In this document: in pieces, positions 17,307 through 29,071 of the stretch
Numbering within the stretch: the stretch's first letter is position 1
Layout: the number at the start of each line of letters is the position of its first letter
NCBI RefSeq assembly: GCF_004087835.1
Contig: NZ_CP035119.1
Coordinates: 2,232,001-2,296,000, forward strand
Origin: Halorussus pelagicus
GTDB taxonomy: Archaea > Halobacteriota > Halobacteria > Halobacteriales > Haladaptataceae
Direction: 5' to 3'
DNA length: 64,000 nucleotides
Position numbers and translations under genes: made by a program
Notes under the pieces: model-generated
What the model was told of the DNA's origin: nothing
Databases searched by the model: none
Seen by the model: the letters and a program-made list of their open reading frames with translations, nothing else

Positions 17307-19063
17307 GCTTCGACCTCCTCGCTCTGGAGTTTTGCTTCGATTTCCTCTGCAAGTTCGTCGGCCTTGAATCTGATGCCGTTGTACTTGTTCACCCGCTTGA
17401 CGCGAGTGAGGGCGTCGTGTTCGAGGATGTCGGCGAACTGTCCGCTCTCGTTACACTCGACGACGATGACCTCGTCGGCCGCCTCGATGTCATCGCTGAG
17501 GTCGGGCCGCGGGAAGATGTACGGCACCGAAAGGAACCGAACGTCGATGTCCTCCTCGTCGAGGTAGTCGAGGGCTTCGCGCATCGCGCCCTCGTTCGAA
17601 CCCCACGAGATGACGAGGTTATCCGACTCGGGGTTCCCGAACTCTCGGGGACTCCAGTCTTCCTCGTTCTGGGCGGTCTCGACTTTCCGGTTGCGCTTGT
17701 CCACCTGCTCGATGCGGACATCCGTGTCCTCGGTCCGTCGGCCGAGCGCGTTGTGTTCGAGACCGGTGGACATGTGGGCCGCGTTCTCCGTGCCGGGGAG
17801 CGCGCGCGGACTGATGCCGTCGGCCGTCGAGAAGTGGGGCTGGAAGCGGTCGCGCTCGTCGGTCCACGCCTCGACCTCGTCGTCATCCACGACCTTACCG
17901 CGGTCGATTTCCACTGCGTCCATGTCGAAGACCTCCGGGTCGAAGGTCTGCTCGGTGACGGCCATCGAGAGGTCCGCCAGCAGGAAGACGGGCGTCTGGT
18001 ACTTCTCGGCGAGGTTGAACGCCTCGACCGTCTTCTGGAAACACTCGCCGACGTTGGTCGGTGCGACGACGAACCGCGGAATCTCGCCGTGGCCGCCGTA
18101 CAGCGTCATGTTGAGGTCGCCCTGCTCCTGCTTGGTCGGCATCCCGGTGGAGGGACCCGAGCGCATCACGTCGGCGATGACCAGCGGGGTCTCGCTAGTT
18201 GCGACGAGACCGAACGTCTCGGTCATCAGGTCGATGCCCGGCCCGGACGTGGCGGTCATCGAACGGGCACCGGCGCGGGCCGCACCCAGCGCCATGTTGA
18301 TAGCCGAGAGTTCGTCCTCGGCCTGCACGACTTCGCCGCCGAACTGCTCGATGCGCCCGGTCAGATACTCCATTACGTCGGTCGCGGGCGTGATGGGGTA
18401 TCCGGCGTAGAAGCGACATCCGGCCGCGATTGCGCCCATGCCGATGGCCTCGTCGCCGTTCAGCAGGACGTAGTCGTTGTCGGTGGTGTCGAGGTCGTAG
18501 TCGAACTCGTGGTCGAACTCCTCGGCCACGAACTCTTGGCCCTTGCGGGCGGCGTCCTTGTTGTTCGAGACGATGGATTCGCCCTTGTTGCCGAACTTCT
18601 TCTCCAGCGCGGAGTCGAGGTTCTCGATGGGGAAATTGGTCACTTCGCAGGCCGCGCCGAGCGCGACGATGTTCTGCATGATGGCACCGCCCGCCTCCTC
18701 GGCGAGGCGCTGCAGCGGGACCGATAGCCCGGTCATGTCGCCCGGAATCTCGATATCCTCCATCTCGGTGCGCTCGCCGTCGTAGATGATGACGGAGCCG
18801 TCGTGGAGTTCGTCGAGGTTCTCGTCGATGGTGCGCTCGGTCAGCGCGACGAGGATGTCGAGGCGGTCAACGACGCTCTCGACGCGGTCGGTCGAACTCC
18901 GAATCTTGTAGGCGGTGTAGCCGCCCCGGATTCGGGACGCGAAGTCCTTTGAAGTGAAAACGTGTCGTCCTGCGCGGGAAAGCGCCTGCGCGAAAATTTT
19001 CCCGGTAGAGTCGATCCCATCGCCGGCTTCTCCGCCGATGGCCCAGTTCAGGTCGTCTGGCAT
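17303..19063 (-). CDS. korA: 2-oxoacid:ferredoxin oxidoreductase alpha subunit, gamma-alpha fusion (KorA type)
   Basis: A 586-residue protein. Residues 1-190 are the gamma domain (NWAIGGEAGDGIDSTGKIF...RIRGGYTAYKIR). From about 200 is the alpha domain (NGDEAIGMGAIAAGCRFYAGYPITPATDVMEYL), including the conserved YPITPAT motif and TSGPGIDLM. The fused arrangement is usual for haloarchaea. The gene is first in a two-gene operon with korB and is translationally coupled to it. A short gap separates it from the divergent flavoprotein gene. Confidence 0.93.
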   Translation of the reverse strand: MPDDLNWAIGGEAGDGIDSTGKIFAQALSRAGRHVFTSKDFASRIRGGYTAYKIRSSTDRVESVVDRLDILVALTERTIDENLDELHDGSVIIYDGERTEMEDIEIPGDMTGLSVPLQRLAEEAGGAIMQNIVALGAACEVTNFPIENLDSALEKKFGNKGESIVSNNKDAARKGQEFVAEEFDHEFDYDLDTTDNDYVLLNGDEAIGMGAIAAGCRFYAGYPITPATDVMEYLTGRIEQFGGEVVQAEDELSAINMALGAARAGARSMTATSGPGIDLMTETFGLVATSETPLVIADVMRSGPSTGMPTKQEQGDLNMTLYGGHGEIPRFVVAPTNVGECFQKTVEAFNLAEKYQTPVFLLADLSMAVTEQTFDPEVFDMDAVEIDRGKVVDDDEVEAWTDERDRFQPHFSTADGISPRALPGTENAAHMSTGLEHNALGRRTEDTDVRIEQVDKRNRKVETAQNEEDWSPREFGNPESDNLVISWGSNEGAMREALDYLDEEDIDVRFLSVPYIFPRPDLSDDIEAADEVIVVECNESGQFADILEHDALTRVKRVNKYNGIRFKADELAEEIEAKLQSEEVEA

Positions 19064-19189
19064 TCCTAACTAGCCGGTAACCCATGCCAAATCAAAAACC
19101 TTCTGAAGCGCCCCTGCGGCAAGGGTTTCCGATACCGACTCGCGGCCGCAGTCGGAGGCTCTTTAGTCGCGCCTCGGCAAGGAAGTGAC

Positions 19190-19837
19190 ATGGACGGAAC
19201 CGAAGTCGCGGTCCGCTCAGTCGAGACGGTCGGCACCGACACCATCGCGCTCACGCTGGAGACGCCCGCGGGATTCGACGCCCACCCCGGTCAGTTCGTC
19301 CAGCTAGCCGCGACGATAGACGGCGAGGAGGTCACGCGCCACTACACGCTCTCGTCGCCGGACGCCGACGAGACCTTCGAGACGACCGTCGAGGTGGACC
19401 CCGAGGGGTCGCTCAGTCCCTACCTCGCGGACCTCGAACCCGACGACGCGGTCGAGGTTGCCGGTCCCTTCGGCGACGCCTACTACGAGAGCGAGGAGAG
19501 CGTCGTCGTCCTCGCGGGCGGGCCGGGCGTCGGTCCCGCGGTCGGCATCGGCGAGCGCGCGAACGAGGACGGAGCGACCGTCACGGTAGTCTACGAGGAC
19601 GACGAACCCGCCCACGAGGACCGACTGACCGCGCTCGCCGACGCGGGCGCGACGGTCGCAATCACCGACGACGTGAGTAGCGAGGACGTGCTGGAAGTCC
19701 TCGCGGACGCGCAGGGCCAGACGTTCATCTACGGCTTCGCGGACTTCCTCGACCGCGCGACGGCCGCGCTCGACGCCGCGAACATCGACGCCGAGGACGC
19801 CAAGACCGAGAACTTCGGTCCCGCGCCCGACAGCTAA
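19190..19837 (+). CDS. FAD-binding ferredoxin-reductase-like oxidoreductase
   Basis: A 215-residue protein of the ferredoxin-NADP reductase fold. The FAD motif RHYTLSS is at residues 50-56. The NAD(P)-binding half starts with VVVLAGGPGVGPAVGI, and the C-terminus is YGFADFLDRATAAL. It is short and lacks an iron-sulfur domain. Location next to korAB suggests electron transfer between ferredoxin or NAD(P)H and another partner, but that is inference from position only. Confidence 0.85.
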   Translation: MDGTEVAVRSVETVGTDTIALTLETPAGFDAHPGQFVQLAATIDGEEVTRHYTLSSPDADETFETTVEVDPEGSLSPYLADLEPDDAVEVAGPFGDAYYESEESVVVLAGGPGVGPAVGIGERANEDGATVTVVYEDDEPAHEDRLTALADAGATVAITDDVSSEDVLEVLADAQGQTFIYGFADFLDRATAALDAANIDAEDAKTENFGPAPDS

Positions 19838-19846
19838 CTCTTTCAG

Positions 19847-20230
19847 TCAGTGTTCCACGAACTCGATTAGGACGCCGCCGGTCGATTTGGGGTGGAGGAA
19901 CGCGACATCGTGGCCCCACGCGCCGGGTCGCGGTTCGTCGTCGAGCAGTGTGACGCCGTGGTCGCGCGCGGTGTCGAGCGCCGTCTCGATGTCGTCCGTT
20001 TCGAGCGCGACGTGATGGATTCCCGGTCCGTTTCTGTCCAGATACTGCGAGATAGTGCCGTCTTCGAGCGGTTCGAGCAGTTCGAAGTAGCTATCGCCGA
20101 ACTCAAGGAAGACGATTCGGAGGCCGTCGAACTCCTCCTCGTGGATGACCGGAACGTCGAACAGGTCGGCGTACAACTCCGCGAGGTCTCCGGCCTCCTC
20201 GGTGGCGATTCCGACGTGGTCGATGTGCAT
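19847..20230 (-). CDS. mce: Methylmalonyl-CoA epimerase
   Basis: A 127-residue VOC-fold protein from the ATG at 20230. MHIDHVGIATEEAGDLAELYADLF is the N-terminal beta-alpha motif with the metal-binding His, and FLEFGDSYFELLEP and GIHHVALETDD supply further metal ligands. It interconverts the R and S forms of methylmalonyl-CoA. A TATA-like CTATACTCC about 25 bases upstream suggests a leaderless transcript starting at this ATG. The mutase large subunit is encoded 2.5 kb away, so propionyl-CoA assimilation is supported. Confidence 0.93.
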   Translation of the reverse strand: MHIDHVGIATEEAGDLAELYADLFDVPVIHEEEFDGLRIVFLEFGDSYFELLEPLEDGTISQYLDRNGPGIHHVALETDDIETALDTARDHGVTLLDDEPRPGAWGHDVAFLHPKSTGGVLIEFVEH

Positions 20231-20379
20231 GTGCGAGAATATCGCGTCGTCGGAGTATAGTTTCCGGGGTCTTTGGCTCAGTATCTCGGTGAGGACAGAG
20301 CTACGCGTTCCGAGATGGTTAGCAGGGACACACTGTTTCTGTGAGCAGTTGATACTACGATGCGTGTAAGATACCACCG

Positions 20380-20400
20380 AAAAGTCGGTCGAAGACCGAC
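20380..20400 (-). terminator. Hairpin plus T-run after micro-gene 1
   Basis: On the minus strand GTCGGTC pairs with GACCGAC across a TTC loop (20384-20400), followed at once by TTTT. It lies 5 bases after the stop of the 19-residue peptide gene and looks like an intrinsic terminator. Confidence 0.75.
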
Positions 20401-20405
20401 CGTCG

Positions 20406-20465
20406 TTAGCCGTCGGCGCACCAGGAACCGCACCAGTCGTGGTCCAAGGGGCTGAATCCGAACAT
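20406..20465 (-). CDS. Micro-peptide gene 1 (19 aa, MFGFSPLDHDWCGSWCADG)
   Basis: The ATG at 20465 follows a perfect GGAGGTGA ribosome-binding site (20473-20480) by 7 bases, and the frame ends in TAA at 20406-20408. The peptide has two Trp and a C-G-S-W-C pair. It shares the N-terminal pattern M-F-G-F-x-P-L-x-H...C...C with two other micro-genes at 24761 and 25356. A TATA-like element lies 45 bases before the ATG and a hairpin terminator follows the stop, so this is a self-contained transcription unit of about 100 bases. Function is unknown. A signalling peptide, a ribosomally made modified peptide, or a metal/thiol-binding micro-protein are possibilities only. Confidence 0.72.
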   Translation of the reverse strand: MFGFSPLDHDWCGSWCADG

Positions 20466-20502
20466 TACTTTCTCACCTCCATTGTTAGTTAGTCACTATC
20501 TA

Positions 20503-20515
20503 CCACATAAATTTA
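20503..20515 (-). promoter_or_regulatory. TATA-like element of micro-gene 1
   Basis: On the minus strand AAATTTATGTGG lies with TTAT starting 30 bases before GGAGGTGA. The same spacing (29 and 30) is found upstream of the other two micro-genes. It would start transcription just ahead of the Shine-Dalgarno site. Confidence 0.5.
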
Positions 20516-20614
20516 TCTAAACCAAAGAATTTAAAATGGTTGTTAGCTCACACCAGGACTCTCAGTCACGTTCCACTCTGACCTTTTTGTCGGACTATCT
20601 CGAACTCCGACTTA

Positions 20615-21310
20615 GTGCAAGCAGTCTTCTTCGACCTCGACGGCACGCTGGTCGCGCTCCCCGACGATTTCGCGGCAGTCTTCCAGGCGGCGCTGGCCGA
20701 CCACGGCGTCCGCGCCGACGCCGAGCGCCACGAGTGTTTCACCGAGGCGTTCTTCTACTACCTCGGCGAGTGCCGCGCCGACCCCTACCGCGCGGCGATG
20801 GCCGACCTGCGCACCGAGTACGACCTCGCTCCGCCCGCCGAGGCGCTGGCCGAGAGCTATGCCGAGCGCGAGGCGGCCGCGACCGAACTCCGGCCGGGTG
20901 CCCGCGACGCGCTCGACGCGCTCGCGGCGGCCGAGTCCGACGACTCGGCCGCCGACGTTGCGCTCGGCGTCCTGACCAACGGCGGCGCGCGCGGTCAGCG
21001 CCGAAAGCTGGCCGTCCACGACCTCGCAGACTACTTCGAGTCGGTCGTTATCTCGGCGGACGTCGGCGCGGGCAAGCCCGACCCCGAAATCTTCGCGGCC
21101 GCGCGGGACGCGATTCCCGCCGACGAATACGCTTTCGTCGCCGACGACTTGGACCGCGACGTGCGCGCCGCCCAGCGAGAGGGATTCACGGGCGTCTACG
21201 TGGCCGAAGACGACCGAGGAGACGGGATAGCCTCGGAAGCAGGAGAGAGCGCGGAGCGACCCGACCATTGCGTCGGGTCGCTCCGCGAGGTTCCCGCGCT
21301 GTTCAAGTAG
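20615..21310 (+). CDS. HAD-superfamily phosphatase
   Basis: A 231-residue haloacid-dehalogenase-type hydrolase. Motif I is FFDLDGTLVA, with nucleophile D7 and acid D9. GVLTNG supplies motif II, KPDPEIF motif III, and VADDLDRD motif IV. The cap domain lies between residues 15 and 85. Starts at a GTG. Two perfect inverted repeats sit inside it (20926-20953 and 21251-21286). The second encodes the C-terminal tail ERPDHCVGSLREV. The substrate is unknown. Confidence 0.88.
   Translation: MQAVFFDLDGTLVALPDDFAAVFQAALADHGVRADAERHECFTEAFFYYLGECRADPYRAAMADLRTEYDLAPPAEALAESYAEREAAATELRPGARDALDALAAAESDDSAADVALGVLTNGGARGQRRKLAVHDLADYFESVVISADVGAGKPDPEIFAAARDAIPADEYAFVADDLDRDVRAAQREGFTGVYVAEDDRGDGIASEAGESAERPDHCVGSLREVPALFK
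20926..20953. repeat. 12-bp perfect inverted repeat inside the HAD gene
   Basis: GGCGGCCGAGTC at 20926-20937 and its exact reverse complement at 20942-20953 surround a 4-base loop. The encoded segment is an Ala/Glu/Ser/Asp-rich loop. Confidence 0.85.
21251..21286. repeat. 15-bp perfect inverted repeat at the 3' end of the HAD gene
   Basis: GCGGAGCGACCCGAC at 21251-21265 is mirrored exactly at 21272-21286 with a 6-base loop. It lies 24 bases before the stop codon. Confidence 0.88.
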
Positions 21311-21383
21311 TCCCGCTGCAAGTGGGGGCGTCCGCAGCGAGGGTGCCGAAAGCTTGTTGTCGCGTGGCTTCCACCACTCGCCA

Positions 21384-21689
21384 ATGAGCGACTGGGAGTG
21401 CGGCATCGACGGTTGCGGCGAAGCGTTCGACGACGTGGAGGAGGCCATCGTGCATCAGACGACCGACCACAAGCGCCGCGAGTGCAAGGTCTGTGGCTCG
21501 GTGGTCCCCGACGGCTACTTCGCTATCCGCCACGCCTTCGATGAACACTCGCGCGCGGAGTACGTCCGGGCCTACGGCGCGAGCGCCGCGGAGGTCCGCC
21601 AGCGCGAGCGCGTCCGCGACGCCATCGAGGACGACGCCGACCTCCAGCAGGTCGTGAACCGACTGGACGAAGTTACGGGTGGACTGTAA
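21384..21689 (+). CDS. Small zinc-finger protein
   Basis: A 101-residue protein from the ATG at 21384. The first finger is WECGIDGCGEAFDDVEEAIVHQTTDH (C2H2 type) and the second is RECKVCGSVVPDGYFAIRHAFDEH (CxxC...H...H). A charged helical tail follows (VRQRERVRDAIEDDADLQQVVNRL). It probably binds nucleic acid or a protein partner. Similar two-finger proteins are common and uncharacterised in haloarchaea. Confidence 0.82.
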   Translation: MSDWECGIDGCGEAFDDVEEAIVHQTTDHKRRECKVCGSVVPDGYFAIRHAFDEHSRAEYVRAYGASAAEVRQRERVRDAIEDDADLQQVVNRLDEVTGGL

Positions 21690-21706
21690 CCTCGCTTCTA
21701 CGACCT

Positions 21707-21913
21707 ATGAACGACGAGACCGTCGGATGGGTAGAAGCAAATAGCGCGTTCGCAGCGGCCGCTGTCTTCTTACTCGTCGGCGTCGCTGTAATCTCGGGAT
21801 ACAATTTCGTAACTGGCCGATACCAGAATCGACTGTTACAGGGAATACAACTCCTCGTGGCCTCTGTTTTGACTCTACATATTTTATTTGAGCTGGACAA
21901 AGTACACGAGTGA
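21707..21913 (+). CDS. Small two-TM membrane protein
   Basis: A 68-residue protein with two hydrophobic segments (residues 14-31 and 45-62) joined by a basic loop (NFVTGRYQNR). The ATG is 17 bases after the zinc-finger gene stop, so they may form an operon. Codon use is less GC-rich than its neighbours. No family is recognised. Confidence 0.6.
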   Translation: MNDETVGWVEANSAFAAAAVFLLVGVAVISGYNFVTGRYQNRLLQGIQLLVASVLTLHILFELDKVHE

Positions 21914-21994
21914 AACCCGCTTTACTCGTCGAGTGGAGTGCTTTCGACTCTTCGCGCCACACCCTTTTTACGGTCTGACAGCCAAGTCACATCC

Positions 21995-22576
21995 ATGTAC
22001 GTCCGGGGCGCGAAAAACAGGGAGGAAGTCTGGCTGTTGGACCACATCGAGGCGATGGGTCTCGACGAAACCGCGTTCCGCTCCCGCGACTACGTGGTCG
22101 CAATCGACGAGACCTCCGGCGAGAAGGCGGGGTTCGGCCGCATCCGGATTCACAAGACCGACGACCGGGAACTCTGCGAACTCACCAGCATCGGCGTGCT
22201 GGAGTCGTGGCGCGAGCAGGGCGTGGGCGCGCACGTCGTCGAGCGACTGGTCGAGCAGGCCCGCGACCACGGCTTCGACGCCGTGTTCTCGCTGACGGGC
22301 GCGACCGACTATCTCTCGCAGTTCGGCTTCCGCGGCGTCGAGTCCAGCGACCTGCCCGACAAACTCCGCGAGCGTCTCGACGCCAAGCGCGAGACCATCG
22401 ACCCCGACGCGGTGGGGATGGTCCTCGACGCCGAGGCGTTCGTCATGCCCGACCGCCTGCGCGAGCGGTTCAAGCGCGCCCAGCCTCACGAGGAAGACAC
22501 CGAACCCGAGGAGTCTGCGGAGGACTTTGGCATCGACCCCAAAGAGGCGACCTACAAGTACGACACCGGCGGATAA
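21995..22576 (+). CDS. GNAT family N-acetyltransferase
   Basis: A 193-residue protein from the ATG at 21995. The acetyl-CoA binding motif is SIGVLESWREQGVGAHVVERLVEQAR (R-x-Q-G-V-G at about residues 72-77), followed by FSLTGATDYLSQFGFRGVE, the usual beta5-alpha4 region. The C-terminal extension (EEDTEPEESAEDFGIDPKEATYKYDTGG) is acidic and disordered. Substrate unknown. Confidence 0.88.
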   Translation: MYVRGAKNREEVWLLDHIEAMGLDETAFRSRDYVVAIDETSGEKAGFGRIRIHKTDDRELCELTSIGVLESWREQGVGAHVVERLVEQARDHGFDAVFSLTGATDYLSQFGFRGVESSDLPDKLRERLDAKRETIDPDAVGMVLDAEAFVMPDRLRERFKRAQPHEEDTEPEESAEDFGIDPKEATYKYDTGG

Positions 22577-22724
22577 GCACGGAACCCCGGTCGCCGGTCG
22601 TTCCGGCGCGTGGTCTCACTCAGTGGTCAACCACTCGCCGCGCTCGTCGTTCTCCTGAATTGTCTCGCGCGCGCCGCGTCCAATCCGCCAATTGTTAAGA
22701 CCGGTCCGGCCGTCGGTCCATACA

Positions 22725-24407
22725 ATGTTCGACGCCGACGACCTCGAAGAGATACGTGAGGCACGCGAGGAGTGGGAGGACGAAACCGTCGGTCCGACGG
22801 TCGAGCGGTTCGGCGAGCGCAAGGAGGAGTTCACCACCGACACGGGCGGCCAAGAGGTAAAGCGCCTCTACACGCCGGACGACGCCGCCGACCTCGACTA
22901 CGACGAGGACTTGGGCTTTCCCGGCGAGGAACCGTACACCCGCGGGCCGTACTCCACGATGCACCGCGGGCGACTCTGGACGATGCGCCAGTACGCCGGG
23001 TTCGGGACGCCCGAGGAGACCAACGAGCGCTTCGAGTATCTCATCGAGAACGGTTCGTCGGGTCTCTCGATGGCGTTCGACCTGCCGACCCAGATGGGCT
23101 ACGACTCCGACGCCGCGATGGCCGCGGGCGAAGTCGGCAAGTCCGGCGTCGCCATCGACTCGCTGCACGACATGGAGACCGTTTTCGACGGCATCCCGCT
23201 CGACGAGGTCTCGACCTCGATGACGATCAACGCGCCCGCGTCGGTCCTGCTGGCGATGTACATCGCCGTTGGCGACAAACAGGGCGTCGATAGGGAGGAG
23301 CTACGTGGGACCATCCAGAACGACCTCCTGAAAGAGTACATCGCGCGCAACACCTACATCTATCCGCCGGAACCCTCGATGCGCATCATCACCGACATCT
23401 TCGAGTTCTGCGCCGAGGAGACCCCGAAGTTCAACACCATCTCTATCTCGGGCTACCACGTCCGCGAGGCCGGAGCGACCGCCGCCCAAGAGTTGGCGTT
23501 CACGCTCGGTAACGGCATCGAGTACGTCGAGGCCGCCACCGAGGCCGGACTCGACGTGGACGAGTTCGCGCCCCAGCTTTCGTTCTTCTTCAACGCTCAC
23601 AACAACATTCTAGAAGAGGTCGCCAAGTTCCGCGCGGCCCGCCGAATGTGGGCACAGATTATGGAGGAGCGATTCGGCGCGGAGAACCCCAAGTCCAAGC
23701 AGTTGAAGTTCCACACCCAGACCGCCGGTTCGACCCTGACCGCCCAACAGGTGGACAACAACATCGTCCGCGTGGCGTATCAGGCCTTGGCGGCCGTCCT
23801 CGGTGGGACCCAGAGCCTCCACACCAACGGGAAAGACGAAGCCCTCGCGCTCCCGACCGAGGAGAGCGTCCGGACCGCGCTCCGGACCCAGCAGATTCTC
23901 GCCCATGAGTCGGGTGCCGCCGACACTATCGACCCGCTCGCGGGAAGCTACTACGTCGAGAGCCTGACGGACGGTGTGGAAGAGGACGCCTTCGACATCC
24001 TCGACACCGTGGACCAGAAGGGCGGGATGTTGCAAGCCATCGAGGACCAGTGGGTCCAGCGCCAGATTCAGGACGTGGCCTACGAGCGCCAGCGCGAAAT
24101 CGAGGAGAAAGAGCGCGTCATCGTCGGCGTCAACGAGTTCGAGGTGGACGAGGACCCCGAAGTGGACATTCAGGAAGTGACCGAGGAGGACGAACAGCGC
24201 CAGATAGACAGCCTGAACGACGTGAAGGCCGACCGCGACGACGAGGAGGTCGAGGCGAAACTCGACGCCCTCCGGGAGGCCGCCGAGGGCGAGGAGAACG
24301 TGATGCCCTACATCGTCGAGGCGGTGAAAGCCTATGCGACGGTCGGAGAAATCTGCGGCGTCATGCGCGACGTGTTCGGGGAGTACAAGCCCGGCGCGGC
24401 AGTTTGA
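22725..24407 (+). CDS. mcmA1: Methylmalonyl-CoA mutase large (alpha) subunit
   Basis: A 560-residue protein from the ATG at 22725. It contains the substrate-binding TIM barrel: [52 protein letters not shown], and the substrate/active-site region [21 protein letters not shown]. The B12-binding domain is absent, as expected when it is encoded by a separate small-subunit gene not in this window. With the epimerase at 19847-20230 it converts methylmalonyl-CoA to succinyl-CoA. Confidence 0.95.
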
Positions 24408-24760
24408 CATCGGCCCAACCCTGACACGCAGAGCAGTCTCCTCGCGTTTCTGTAACGATACCCTATTTTATAATAATTTTATTCTTTCATAGGGAAAAAT
24501 ACATTTCGGGGTGAGACCACGTTCGGATTTAATCCGCTCCAAGTCTGTGACGGAGACATCAACGACGGCTGTTAGTGCCAGCGGTCCGTCGATGGCCATC
24601 GGTTTCATATCGCCTGCTAATTCCTTCGAGTCGAACGACCGCACGACCCGCGGACTGCGACTATATTTGGATTTCACATGAATATGGTTGTTTTTAGAGT
24701 GTGGTAATACCAGAGAATTTATATGTGCATGTGGCAATTGGTAACTTGGAGGTGACACAC
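24408..24760. other. Low-GC gene-poor region upstream of micro-gene 2
   Basis: This 353-base stretch is markedly richer in A and T than its surroundings. A 96-codon minus-strand reading frame (24468-24758) has a plausible stretch in the middle (ELAGDMKPMAIDGPLALTAVVDVSVTDLERIKSERGL), but its N-terminus has no haloarchaeal character. It may be a decayed gene. The right end holds the micro-gene promoter. Confidence 0.45.
24716..24728 (+). promoter_or_regulatory. TATA-like element of micro-gene 2
   Basis: GAATTTATATGTG lies so that TTAT begins 29 bases before GGAGGTGA. It resembles AAATTTATGTGG ahead of micro-gene 1. Confidence 0.5.
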
Positions 24761-24826
24761 ATGATTGACTTCAAGCCGCTCCAGCACGCCATCTGCGTTG
24801 GCGCCGGATACTGCTACGGTGCGTAA
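24761..24826 (+). CDS. Micro-peptide gene 2 (21 aa)
   Basis: The ATG follows GGAGGTGA (24748-24755) by 5 bases and the frame stops with TAA at 24824-24826. The peptide begins MIDFKPLQHAIC and ends GYCYGA, with Cys at residues 12 and 18 and two Tyr near the end. The first nine residues match the other two micro-peptides (x-F/L-x-P-L-x-H). A GC hairpin with an A-run lies just downstream (24857-24882) but has no T-run in this direction. It stands alone in a low-GC patch. Function unknown. Confidence 0.7.
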   Translation: MIDFKPLQHAICVGAGYCYGA

Positions 24827-24918
24827 TCGCGTTTCCCCGGAACAGGTGACGATTGCGGCCGACGATGTGGCCGCCAAAAAATAACTTCAGTTCTCCGCAA
24901 TCTATTGGAACCCAACTC

Positions 24919-25203
24919 TCACAGTCGTGTGACCAGTTCGTCCACGTCCGCCTCGGTTTTGAAGACGTAGACCGACGCTCGGACCGCGTTCTCCAGGAAC
25001 GGGAGCGACCGGATTTGGTCGCCGTCTCCCGCCAACGCCTCGACGAACGCCTCAGCGTTTGGGTCCTCGACGGCGAACGTGACGAGACCCGACTCGTATT
25101 CGCGGGGACTCAGCAGGCGCGCGGTCTCGGAGTCTTCGATACCGCCCTTAACTCGGTCGGTCAGGGTTTCGATGTGATTCCGAATCGTCTCGTAGCCAAT
25201 TAT
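24919..25203 (-). pseudogene. C-terminal remnant of a class V aminotransferase
   Basis: From about IGYETIRNHIETLTDRVKGG to the stop this reads as the C-terminal small domain of a PLP-dependent class V aminotransferase (cysteine-desulfurase-like), ending with a hydrophobic/Val-rich FLENAVRASVYVFKTEADVDELV segment. The central part with the PLP lysine is missing. The N-terminal remnant lies at 25515-25868 on the same strand in a different frame. The sequence between is low-GC and contains micro-gene 3. Confidence 0.7.
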
Positions 25204-25310
25204 TCGATGGTCTCGACGACTTTGGCGAGTACCGACCCGTCGCGGCGGTGCAGGCCAGCGGAACCGCCAGCAAATTATTTCTATCATATAACATAATATT
25301 ATTTAAGATA

Positions 25311-25322
25311 ATTTTATTTTAC
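25311..25322 (+). promoter_or_regulatory. TATA-like element of micro-gene 3
   Basis: ATTTTATTTTAC in an AT-rich tract, with TTAT beginning 30 bases before GGAGGTGA. The surrounding tract is so AT-rich that the exact element is uncertain. Confidence 0.4.
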
Positions 25323-25355
25323 TCTATTTTATTATATACTATTGGAGGTGAAAAG

Positions 25356-25406
25356 ATGTTTGGACTTATCCCACTGCACTACTGTGACGCCGATAATCGC
25401 TGTTAG
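25356..25406 (+). CDS. Micro-peptide gene 3 (16 aa, MFGLIPLHYCDADNRC)
   Basis: The ATG follows GGAGGTGA (25344-25351) by 4 bases, and the frame ends in TAG at 25404-25406. The N-terminal MFGLIPLH matches the start of micro-peptide 1 (MFGFSPLDH) almost residue for residue, and two cysteines follow. It lies in the gap between the two remnants of a broken aminotransferase, facing the opposite way. A weak stem (GACCG...CGGTC) lies at the stop codon. Function unknown. Confidence 0.65.
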   Translation: MFGLIPLHYCDADNRC

Positions 25407-25514
25407 ACCGTCGAACAGTCACGCGGTCAAGGTATCACCTACAAACGATTTTAATTTTCGGAACCGGTCCACGAGTAGTGACTCGCCTCGAAGTCAATCC
25501 TTGAGACACTCGCT

Positions 25515-25868
25515 TTACTCATCTGTAGAACGGTCCGGCAGTATCGAGTTACGACGGTCCGTATCAGTTAGTACCAGTGTTGTTGACTCTTTCGACCAAT
25601 TCGGAGTCGCTAGCCATCCTACTGTCTCGGTGACGCGAGCGCCGAGGTGGTCGGCGACGGTCTCGCGCGTGTCATCGAGCACGTCGAAGGTGTAGCGGTA
25701 CATCCGCTCCGCGGCGGGCGCGTCGCACTCGTGGCGCTCGACGCAGGACTCGACGGCCGCCACAACGTTCCTCGGACTCGGTCCCGCAGCCCCGGTGTTC
25801 AGGTACGTCATGTGGTCGAGCGCAGGCATCGCGGCCCTGAGTTTGGTCGGAGTCACGGCTTCTCTCAC
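25515..25868 (-). pseudogene. N-terminal remnant of a class V aminotransferase
   Basis: The first 85 codons read as the start of a class V PLP-dependent aminotransferase (LRAAMPALDHMTYLNTGAAGPSP, then helix VVAAVESCVERHECDAP and VLDDTRETVADHLGA). After HLGARVTETVG the frame continues into sequence with no family character and stops at 25515. The PLP domain is absent and the C-terminal domain lies at 24919-25203. About 190 residues of the family's length are lost. Confidence 0.75.
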
Positions 25869-25954
25869 CGCAGACTGCCCGATAAGTGCTGGCGACGACT
25901 GACACTCCGTTCGGAAAAATCGCTACAAAATCGTCTGGAAACGATACGTCCGTC

Positions 25955-27109
25955 TCAGGACTGCCGGTAGACCAGATTCCGCTGAATCTCGTTGGACCCT
26001 TCGTAGATGACCGGGATGCGCACGTCGCGGTACACCCGCGCGATGCGGCGGTCGGTCAGGATGGAGCGCCCGCCGTGGAACTGCATTCCCTGCTCGGCGC
26101 AGTCCGTGGCGACTTCGGTCGCCTTCGTCTTGGCCATCGCGGCCCACAGGCTCGGGTTGTCGCCGTCGCGGACTTTCTCGGCGGCGCGGTAGGTCAGCGC
26201 GCGGGCGGACTCGAACTCCAACCGCATGTCGGCGAGACCGTGCTGGACCGCCTGAAAGTCCGAAATGGTGCGTCCGAACTCCTCGCGGCCGTGAACGAAG
26301 TCCCACGCCTCCTCGATGGCGGCGGCGGCGAGACCGAGACCGTGCCCGGCCACGACCGTCCGTCCGTGGTTGAAAAACTCCGCCAGAAGCATGAATCCGG
26401 CACCCTCGTAGCCCACCAGATTCTCGTCGGGAATCCGGCAGTCGTCGAAGACAATGTGGGCCTGCTTGCTCGCGCGCATCCCCATCTTCTCGGAGATGTG
26501 TTCGGCGTCGTACCCCTCGGTGTCGGTCGGCACGATGAACAGCGAGTGGTTGCCGTAGCGGTTGTCCTCGTCGTCGCCGGTTCGGGCGTAGACAGTTATC
26601 CAGTCGCCCTCGACGCCGTTGCCGATCCAGTATTTTTCGCCGTTCAGCACCCACTCGTCAGTCTCCTCGTCCTTCTCGGCGGTGGTCTGCATCCCCGAGA
26701 GGTCGCTTCCAGTGTCGGGTTCCGAGACGGCGAGACCAGTTATCTGGTCGCCCTCGGCGACCGGTCGGAGGTATTCTTCCTTCTGGGCCTCGGTCCCGTG
26801 TTCCTCCACGATTTCCGCGCCGAAACTGGCGAGTTGGAGCGACAGCGCGATGCCCGCGTCGGCCCGGAACCACTCCTCGGCGACAGCGAGCATCTGAACC
26901 ACGTCGAGACCCCGGCCGCCCCACTCCTCGCCGATGTCTTGGGCGACGAGTCCGGCGTCCTGTCCGGCTTGGAGGATGTCCTCGGGGTAGGTGGCGTCTC
27001 GGAAATACTCCTCGGCGTTCGGCGCGATGTGTTCCTCGGCGAACTCGCGCGCCTCGTGTTTGACCTCGTGGGCGTACTCCGGTACGATGTCGTCGCTGAG
27101 AAGCTCCAT
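25955..27109 (-). CDS. Acyl-CoA dehydrogenase
   Basis: A 384-residue flavoprotein of normal length. The substrate/FAD signature is GLAVSEPDTGSDLSGMQTTAEKD, the C-terminal signature is QFHGGRSILTDRRIARVYRD, and the catalytic glutamate is in VIYEGSNEIQRN. It introduces an alpha-beta double bond in acyl-CoA. It is adjacent to an acyl-CoA synthetase on the same strand, separated by the repeat-containing gap at 27110-27412, so beta-oxidation is the likely context. Confidence 0.94.
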   Translation of the reverse strand: MELLSDDIVPEYAHEVKHEAREFAEEHIAPNAEEYFRDATYPEDILQAGQDAGLVAQDIGEEWGGRGLDVVQMLAVAEEWFRADAGIALSLQLASFGAEIVEEHGTEAQKEEYLRPVAEGDQITGLAVSEPDTGSDLSGMQTTAEKDEETDEWVLNGEKYWIGNGVEGDWITVYARTGDDEDNRYGNHSLFIVPTDTEGYDAEHISEKMGMRASKQAHIVFDDCRIPDENLVGYEGAGFMLLAEFFNHGRTVVAGHGLGLAAAAIEEAWDFVHGREEFGRTISDFQAVQHGLADMRLEFESARALTYRAAEKVRDGDNPSLWAAMAKTKATEVATDCAEQGMQFHGGRSILTDRRIARVYRDVRIPVIYEGSNEIQRNLVYRQS

Positions 27110-27244
27110 AGCGGATAGAAGGACTCTGTGGAGTTATATTTCGGGGGTATTCGGACCTAACGAGTTTCTTCGAGTTGATTGAGTTCGGGAGACTGCTGGT
27201 GCTGGGAGACCGAGCTATTCCTCCGTCGCCGATTCGGTAAATCG

Positions 27245-27335
27245 ACAGGAATCGAGCGTCAGGCTCGAACAACGGAGTTGACCGCGACCGCACAGCACCG
27301 CACCGCGACAGCCTCATACCCCCACAACCTCCGGG
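27245..27335. repeat. Intergenic dispersed repeat, copy C
   Basis: ATCGAGCGTCAGGCTCGAAC, then GACCGCGACCGCACAGCACC, then CCTCATACCCCCACAACCTC. It has the same block order as copy B at 8025-8163 and, reversed, as the copies at 3307-3372 and 40461-40546. It lies between the acyl-CoA dehydrogenase and acyl-CoA synthetase genes. Confidence 0.65.
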
Positions 27336-27412
27336 CGGACACCCCGCACCCCACGCGCCGGGGTGTTTGCCAAACTGTCGAAATTCGCTGCTGTTGGATT
27401 GCGTGCGCCGAC

Positions 27413-29071
27413 TTACTCGTCTTCGTCGGGCGCGGCCTCCTCTGGCACCGACCCCTCGACCAGCGACTCCCCGCTGTATTCGTCGCGCAGGACCTTCTTG
27501 TCGAACTTCCCAGTCGCGGTCTTCGGAACCTCGTCAATGAACACCACTTCGTCGGGGGTCCACCAACGCGGATACTCCGCCTCGATGTCGTCGATGACGG
27601 TCTCGCGCAGGGCGTCCTCGTCGGTTCCCTCGACCGGGACGACGAAGGCCACCGGTCGCTCCTGCCAGCGTTCGTGTGGCACGCCGATGACCGTCGCCTC
27701 GGCCACCTCGTCGTGGGCTATCAGGGCGTTTTCGAGTTCGAGCGAGGATATCCACTCCCCGCCGCTCTTGATCACGTCCTTCGCGCGGTCCACGATTTTG
27801 ACGTACCCTTCCTCGTCCACCGTCACCACGTCGCCGGTCTTGAGCCACCCGTCCTCGAACTCCTCCTCGTTGGCTTCCGGACGCTCGAAGTACGACTGGG
27901 TGACCCACGGTCCCTTGATGTACATCTCGCCGAAGTCCTCGCCGTTCCACGGCACCTGCTCGCCGTCGTCGTTGACGACTTTGAACTCCAAACCGGGGAC
28001 GACGAGACCCTGCTTGCCGCGCTTCTCGTAGCGGTCGTCGGCCTCCCAATCCTCCATCCCGTCCTTGAGGTGCGAGACGGTGCCGATGGGGGAAGTCTCG
28101 GTCATGCCCCACGCGTGGAGTACGTCTACGTCGTACTCCTCGTCGAAGCGCCGGATGACGGCCTCGGGCGCGGCGCTCCCGCCGATGACGATGGTTTCGA
28201 GCGACGAGAGGTCGGCGTCGTTCTCCTCAAGATACTCCAACAGTCCGAGCCAGACGGTCGGGACGCCCGCGGTGAACGTGACGCCCTCCTCCTCGATGAG
28301 TTTGGCGAGGTCGGCCGGTTCCGGTGCGGGACCGGGATAGACGTGCTTGGCCCCGGCCGCGGCGGCGGAGTAGGGCATCCCCCACGCGTTGACGTGGAAC
28401 ATCGGCACGACCGGCATGATTACGTCCGACTCGTCGAAGTGGAGTCCTTGCGGGGTCAGCGACGCCATCGTGTGCGACCAGAGCATCTGCTGGGTGTACT
28501 CGACACCCTTGGGCTTGCCCGTCGTGCCGGAGGTGTAGCACATCCCGGCCTTCGTGTCGCCCGAGAGGTCCGGCCAGTCGTAGTCGGTGGACTCGTCGGC
28601 GACGAACGACTCGTAGTCAGTCACCGGTTCGAGCGACGTGTCGGGTACCGAATCGCCCATCACCACGAACTGCTCGATGCTCTCGAACGCCTCCGAGTCG
28701 GCGGGTCCCTCCAACTTCTCGACCAGCGAGGGGTCCACGAACAGGAGTCGGTCGTCGGCGTTCTCCACGATGTACTCGATGTGGTGGTCCGGGAGCAGGG
28801 GGTTGATGGTGTGCAACTGCGCGCCGGAGTTGGGGACGCCGAAGTACGTCTCGAAGTGTCGGTGGTGATTCCAGCAGAACGTCGCCACTCGGTCGCCCGA
28901 GTCGATTCCGGCCGCGTCGAGCGCGTTCGCCAACTTGGCGGTCCGGCCCTCGAACTCGGTGTAGTCGTATCGCTCGATGCCCTGTCCCGTCCGCGAGACG
29001 ATTTCGGTGTCGGGGTACAGGTTGGCCGCGCGCCAGAGAAACGGTCGAAGCGTCGGGTCAGTTCCACCCAT
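27413..29071 (-). CDS. AMP-forming long-chain acyl-CoA synthetase
   Basis: A 552-residue ANL enzyme. Motifs are the P-loop MCYTSGTTGKPKGVEYT, the adenine motif AWGMTETSPIG, the hinge region LKTGDVVTVDEEGYVKIVDRAKDVIKSGGEW, and the C-terminal KTATGKFDKK with the catalytic lysine. It resembles the medium/long-chain fatty acid ligases of haloarchaea. It is less similar to the synthetase at 9603-11198 than typical recent duplicates. Confidence 0.93.
   Translation of the reverse strand: MGGTDPTLRPFLWRAANLYPDTEIVSRTGQGIERYDYTEFEGRTAKLANALDAAGIDSGDRVATFCWNHHRHFETYFGVPNSGAQLHTINPLLPDHHIEYIVENADDRLLFVDPSLVEKLEGPADSEAFESIEQFVVMGDSVPDTSLEPVTDYESFVADESTDYDWPDLSGDTKAGMCYTSGTTGKPKGVEYTQQMLWSHTMASLTPQGLHFDESDVIMPVVPMFHVNAWGMPYSAAAAGAKHVYPGPAPEPADLAKLIEEEGVTFTAGVPTVWLGLLEYLEENDADLSSLETIVIGGSAAPEAVIRRFDEEYDVDVLHAWGMTETSPIGTVSHLKDGMEDWEADDRYEKRGKQGLVVPGLEFKVVNDDGEQVPWNGEDFGEMYIKGPWVTQSYFERPEANEEEFEDGWLKTGDVVTVDEEGYVKIVDRAKDVIKSGGEWISSLELENALIAHDEVAEATVIGVPHERWQERPVAFVVPVEGTDEDALRETVIDDIEAEYPRWWTPDEVVFIDEVPKTATGKFDKKVLRDEYSGESLVEGSVPEEAAPDEDE

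Follow-up and report, generated by a model that had tools for sequence, protein, structure and literature searches.

A candidate family of very small genes for two-cysteine peptides, led by near-invariant Shine-Dalgarno sequences, in Halorussus

Upstream of mce, a 64,000-nt stretch of the Halorussus pelagicus genome (the window, G000:C1:2232001-2296000, where G000 is the genome of the analysed stretch) carries a 19-codon open reading frame (ORF) on the minus strand, referred to here as micro-gene 1. We find that it is very probably a free-standing protein-coding micro-gene and belongs to a lineage-restricted family, of which 43 distinct members were counted, 4 of them with a weakened Shine-Dalgarno (SD) sequence or start. 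A first-pass annotation had proposed that micro-gene 1 stands alone as a gene, and the promoter-SD-ORF layout shared by the 43 members strongly supports that proposal. As far as sequence comparison can tell, these very small genes, more than 40 in number, look like a family that had gone unrecognised: no description of it was found in the literature searched, which was covered in part, and Pfam and NCBIfam gave no match for the 8 peptides of at least 20 aa, a set for which micro-gene 1 is too short.

Members were collected from one reference genome per species with three patterns applied in turn, namely SD plus MFG, SD plus M[FIL]x[FIL] and a C-terminal Cys-stop pattern. Ten of the 18 Halorussus genomes contain members, as does one genome of a sister genus (G020), with up to 11 in a single genome (G007), and these numbers are undercounts for members with a weaker SD because the patterns required a near-perfect one. 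A scan of 392 genomes of the order gave no convincing member outside the family of genera to which these two belong, the pattern scan of genome contigs returned one named family match (Halorussus litoreus HD8-51), and the reversed-pattern control in the MFG-seeded searches gave zero matches. The same core is found in the same slot across the two genera, as MIDFTPMIWCDYLGC in G000 and MFGFGLQIWCDYLGC in G020.

The peptides are 15-24 aa long, with one of 29 aa, and take the form M[FILV]x[FILV]x(P)(F/L)...C...C. Every member has F, I, L or V at residues 2 and 4, although most were collected by rules on these two residues, which thus do not count as independent support; P occupies position 6 in 22/43 and the first Cys falls at residue 9-12 in 37/43. 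The cysteine count is exactly two in 40 members, four in the other 3 and never three, and cysteine makes up 11.3% of member residues compared with 0.73% in neighbouring proteins. Cysteine acted as a filter in one of the searches, but another was made without a Cys requirement; of the 26 short ORFs of the genus with an SD and [FIL]x[FIL] in that search, 25 hold at least two Cys when read to their stops. The lone exception, a Cys-free ORF in G006, looks like a chance occurrence.

Within the window the SD GGAGGTGA occurs just 5 times on both strands, and 3 of these occurrences are followed by an ORF of 12-30 codons that contains two or more Cys. By comparison, 150 second-order Markov shuffles of the window gave a mean of 0.03 short SD-led ORFs and 0 with two Cys. 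Searching the DNA of its own genome with the micro-gene 1 unit returned nothing but the unit itself and the SD/start of another member. The possibility that micro-gene 1 is a chance ORF, which its length of just 19 codons might suggest, is refuted by the family and by the codon pattern described below, and we consider it next to impossible.

The first-pass annotation had read a TATA-like element, a perfect SD, the 19-codon ORF and a 7-bp hairpin with TTTT, in this order on the minus strand, as a complete unit of about 100 bases, and all of these elements lie where it placed them (Table 1). Across the family, the promoter motif AGAAAAATTT mostly starts 43-33 nt before the SD, at ~37 nt (score 336 versus 262-284 in shuffles), and resembles the haloarchaeal B recognition element (BRE, CGAAA) and TATA element (TTWT) quoted in PMC4983044. 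Transcription is predicted to start a few bases before the SD, at approximately 20484 for micro-gene 1, which would leave a 5' untranslated region (UTR) of ~19 nt; the average 5' UTR of Haloferax volcanii is ~19 nt (PMC3986360). On the downstream side, T4 or longer lies within 70 nt in 21 of the 41 members analysed for context (4.8 in shuffles), T5 or longer in 11 (0.9 in shuffles) and a perfect stem of at least 6 bp in 9 (2.4 in shuffles). Oligo-T is the 3' feature seen family-wide, whereas evidence for a hairpin terminator on its own is weak. Micro-gene 1 is among the few members with both hairpin and oligo-T downstream, and its putative terminator was picked up by a scan for which shuffles expect 0.3 +/- 0.5. 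However, this hairpin alone proves little, because the minimum-energy RNA fold of the unit (one strand) is no better than that of shuffles (z 0.38). Hence, the 5' half of the proposed unit is well supported by the promoter-SD spacing, while these stem and T4 counts leave its 3' end less certain.

Support for a translated product comes from seven orthologue pairs, in which 41 of 76 nucleotide differences fall at third codon positions (P=2e-4), rising to 25 of 35 from codon 9 onward (P=5e-6); the pairs were picked for peptide likeness, which favours a third-position excess to some degree, and the test is further limited by the alignment of such short sequences by position. This excess points to selection on the peptide. 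In the slot upstream of mce, G011, G009 and a start-less copy in G014 have the same peptide ending, IVCGYNQCFLA, and differ there by synonymous changes only. The same slot in G007 holds MINISLFDNTWCPHCRRL, which has DxxWC..C in common with micro-gene 1; here the flanking genes align at 84-90% and the intervening DNA fails to align. Given that the DNA of the mce slot diverges while the codon pattern holds, the genes seem to evolve fast and yet to be selected as peptides. Two copies upstream of mce are decayed, the start-less IVCGYNQCFLA gene in G014 (L054) and an SD-less MFITRLFDYACAPNWNWES in G011 (L047), which shows gene loss under way.

These data also bear on the idea that the functional product is an RNA, either a small regulatory RNA or a ribosome-binding decoy, and that the ORF is incidental. 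In its favour, no other DNA element is as well conserved as the SD, H. volcanii reportedly does not use the SD for initiation in 5' UTRs (PMC3986360) and the species is reported to have small RNAs with ribosome occupancy (PMC12482152). However, the codon-position pattern and the cysteine rule show selection on the peptide, Rfam gave no match in window positions 19000-27500 and the fold is no better than in shuffles, which makes a functional RNA quite improbable.

The intergenic slots in which members lie (mutA-aminotransferase, upstream of mce, rimI-aconitase, proline dehydrogenase-DUF502 and others) are conserved and adjoin unrelated housekeeping genes, and no regulator or partner gene recurs across the slots. 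The next gene is convergent for 23 of 34 members, which means that they cannot be leaders. The first-pass annotation had noted that micro-genes 2 and 3 (at 24761 and 25356) have no downstream gene to regulate, and both are indeed followed by convergent genes. It had also assigned mce its own TATA-like element at the leaderless spacing; this promoter is present, can be recognised at that spacing in all, or almost all, of 18 species, with larger deviations in G007, G008 and G012, and is kept whether or not a micro-gene lies upstream, so that mce transcription appears independent of the micro-gene. Together with the lack of a co-directed gene behind most members, this upholds the view that the ORF is not simply a leader of mce. 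The attenuator role that had been suggested alongside, in which a Trp/Cys-sensing leader peptide controls mce, fares worse. It draws on the two Trp and two Cys codons ahead of a hairpin with T4, on the distance of 175 nt on the same strand from the micro-gene 1 stop to the mce ATG and on the same-strand micro-gene found upstream of mce in several species. But Trp codons do not characterise the family, a pair of them being found in this copy alone, the fold is unremarkable, mce has its own promoter, and no link is known between mce and Trp or Cys supply. We therefore regard attenuation as very improbable.

The explanation that we favour comprises four steps, of which the first three make up the free-standing gene that we consider very probable. 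First, the BRE/TATA promoter would start transcription a few bases before the SD, as the family-wide motif and spacing suggest, yielding an mRNA of ~100 nt with a 5' UTR of ~19 nt; members would accordingly be expressed as independent short transcripts. Second, as codon-level selection argues, the ORF would be translated into a ~20-aa peptide whose 8-residue N-terminal segment is hydrophobic and contains proline, and whose cysteines, two or in rare cases four, lie in the C-terminal part. Third, the cysteines would pair, either as a disulfide loop or as a metal site, because their number is even at variable spacing. In the fourth and least certain step, the mature loop peptide would act between cells as a signal or antagonist. 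This last proposal is tentative, and it fits the many divergent copies per genome, their fast turnover and their birth and decay.

Some observations weigh against this explanation. Eight of the 18 Halorussus genomes gave no member under the perfect-SD patterns (nor under a relaxed pattern for the mutA-mce region), so the function of the family would be dispensable. Neither an export signal nor a dedicated exporter, receptor or modifying enzyme turned up beside members, and in H. volcanii an SD was without effect on translation at a 5' UTR (PMC3986360). The peptides could instead be intracellular metal-binding or thiol-redox micropeptides rather than signals or antagonists, as the paired Cys near Asp/His in several members, the three members with four Cys and the missing export signal would allow. 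If members shared a metal site, its geometry should stay constant, whereas Cys spacing ranges between 2 and 10 residues and the residues around the Cys are not conserved across slots; we hold this explanation to be a doubtful one, if a serious contender.

Alternatively, the micro-genes might encode precursors of a ribosomally synthesised peptide that is modified after translation by an enzyme whose gene lies elsewhere in the genome. In having an N-terminal segment that is constant and a C-terminal part that varies and bears the Cys, they are reminiscent of leader/core precursors, and Halorussus is the archaeal genus richest in LanM enzymes (PMC12144867). However, no enzyme family recurs in the neighbourhood, MNIO (PF05114) is above the cut-off in none of 28 genomes, and a SPASM protein is found in 5 of the 28, G000 not among them, a distribution unlike that of the family. 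One YcaO is present in every genome, with extras in only some micro-gene genomes and also in the member-less G002 and G019, so that the second YcaO type does not track the family either. In addition, 9 of the 37 perfect-SD members are without any Ser or Thr. No lanthionine synthetase was among the 25 most frequent of 112 families listed for 91 neighbouring proteins, LanM not having been searched genome-wide. Overall, a modified precursor seems improbable. The second YcaO protein of G000 lies at G000:C1:1536274-1537257, and similar extras occur in G001, G002, G007, G009, G014 and G019.

We rank a role between cells above the metal/redox and modified-precursor explanations because the copies are many, divergent and short-lived, although this ranking is weak. 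More speculatively still, the SD-led micro-genes might form a genus-level repertoire of loop peptides for communication or competition between Halorussus strains, which we think unlikely at present. If true, it would be an archaeal peptide signalling or antagonism system without known counterpart, encoded in genes of ~100 bp, and if the peptides are secreted they would constitute a novel type of peptide signal or weapon in archaea. The SD is near-invariant in a group of organisms in which it is reported to be dispensable at 5' UTRs (PMC3986360), which makes the members good reporters of whether some haloarchaeal mRNAs use the SD after all. The family provides at least 43 tiny genes, unmatched in the searched family databases, for tests of expression and function in archaea.

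Besides the three micro-genes, the window contains a fourth, decayed copy that the first-pass annotation does not list at this point, and its orthologues in G003, G005 and G007 keep the ATG and an intact SD (Table 1). The class-V aminotransferase gene at window positions 24922-25856 is broken here and complete in several relatives; in place of residues ~121-268 it has an AT-rich stretch of 282 nt, within which micro-gene 3 lies.

Table 1 Features of the micro-gene loci in the window (positions from the first base of the window).
Feature	Position	Strand	Basis
BRE/TATA-like element GATAAATTTAT of micro-gene 1	20507..20517	-	read from sequence; matches family motif
Shine-Dalgarno GGAGGTGA, 8/8	20473..20480	-	sequence; perfect in 37/41 members analysed for context
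Micro-gene 1, 19 codons, MFGFSPLDHDWCGSWCADG; ATG 20465, stop end 20406	20406..20465	-	ORF and family membership
Putative terminator: 7-bp hairpin GTCGGTC-TTC-GACCGAC 20400-20384 and TTTT 20383-20380	20380..20400	-	terminator scan
mce leaderless promoter GGAAACTATACTCC, 35-22 nt before ATG 20230; its BRE/TATA-like element 35-26 nt before the ATG	20252..20265	-	conserved spacing
mce, methylmalonyl-CoA epimerase-like glyoxalase-fold protein, 127 aa	19847..20230	-	
Decayed micro-gene TFGFNPLQVCDGDINDGC, ACG at start, damaged SD CGGGGTGA	24519..24575	+	112 nt after mutA
Micro-gene 2, MIDFKPLQHAICVGAGYCYGA	24761..24826	+	ORF and family membership
Micro-gene 3, MFGLIPLHYCDADNRC	25356..25406	+	ORF and family membership; orthologue MFTIIPLHYCDADPRC in G001

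The idea that the micro-genes are mobile elements was rejected, as non-orthologous copies share no flanks or repeats beyond the SD/start stretch. A plasmid tblastn search with one 22-aa member gave no match, and a viral scan found no haloarchaeal-looking carrier, since what it matched was long genes, chance ORFs or, in low-GC contigs, a look-alike. In these low-GC viral contigs (L150, L154, L159, L163, L174, L185 and others) an SD-led ORF of 20-21 aa, MFGLFLGASFWECFWFGKCK or MFGFLTFGASFWECFWFGKCK, has the broad outline of the family (MFG, two Cys), a likeness that is probably convergent.

Several known systems resemble the family in part. Amino-acid attenuator leader peptides are likewise tiny ORFs with rare codons before a hairpin, but most micro-gene copies have no structural gene downstream and the mce promoter is independent. 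Streptococcal short hydrophobic peptides (SHPs) are ~20 aa long, SD-led and missed by annotation, and are paired with an Rgg regulator gene. The micro-genes share with SHPs, an example of the short peptide signals reviewed in PMC13361665, the length of ~20 aa, the SD and the fact of having been overlooked by annotation, whereas no regulator recurs beside them and they as a rule encode two Cys. Archaeal lanthipeptide precursors (PMC10105419, PMC12144867) are also short genes of the same genera with C-terminal Cys and a constant N-terminal part; however, they were identified next to lanM and need Ser/Thr together with Cys, while the micro-genes are scattered singly and 9/37 lack Ser/Thr. Haloarchaeal C(P)XCG zinc-finger micro-proteins (PMC11241148) are, like the family, small haloarchaeal proteins with cysteines, but no member has a C(P)XCG pair, and the members described here are ~20 aa long and in 40 of 43 cases hold only two Cys.
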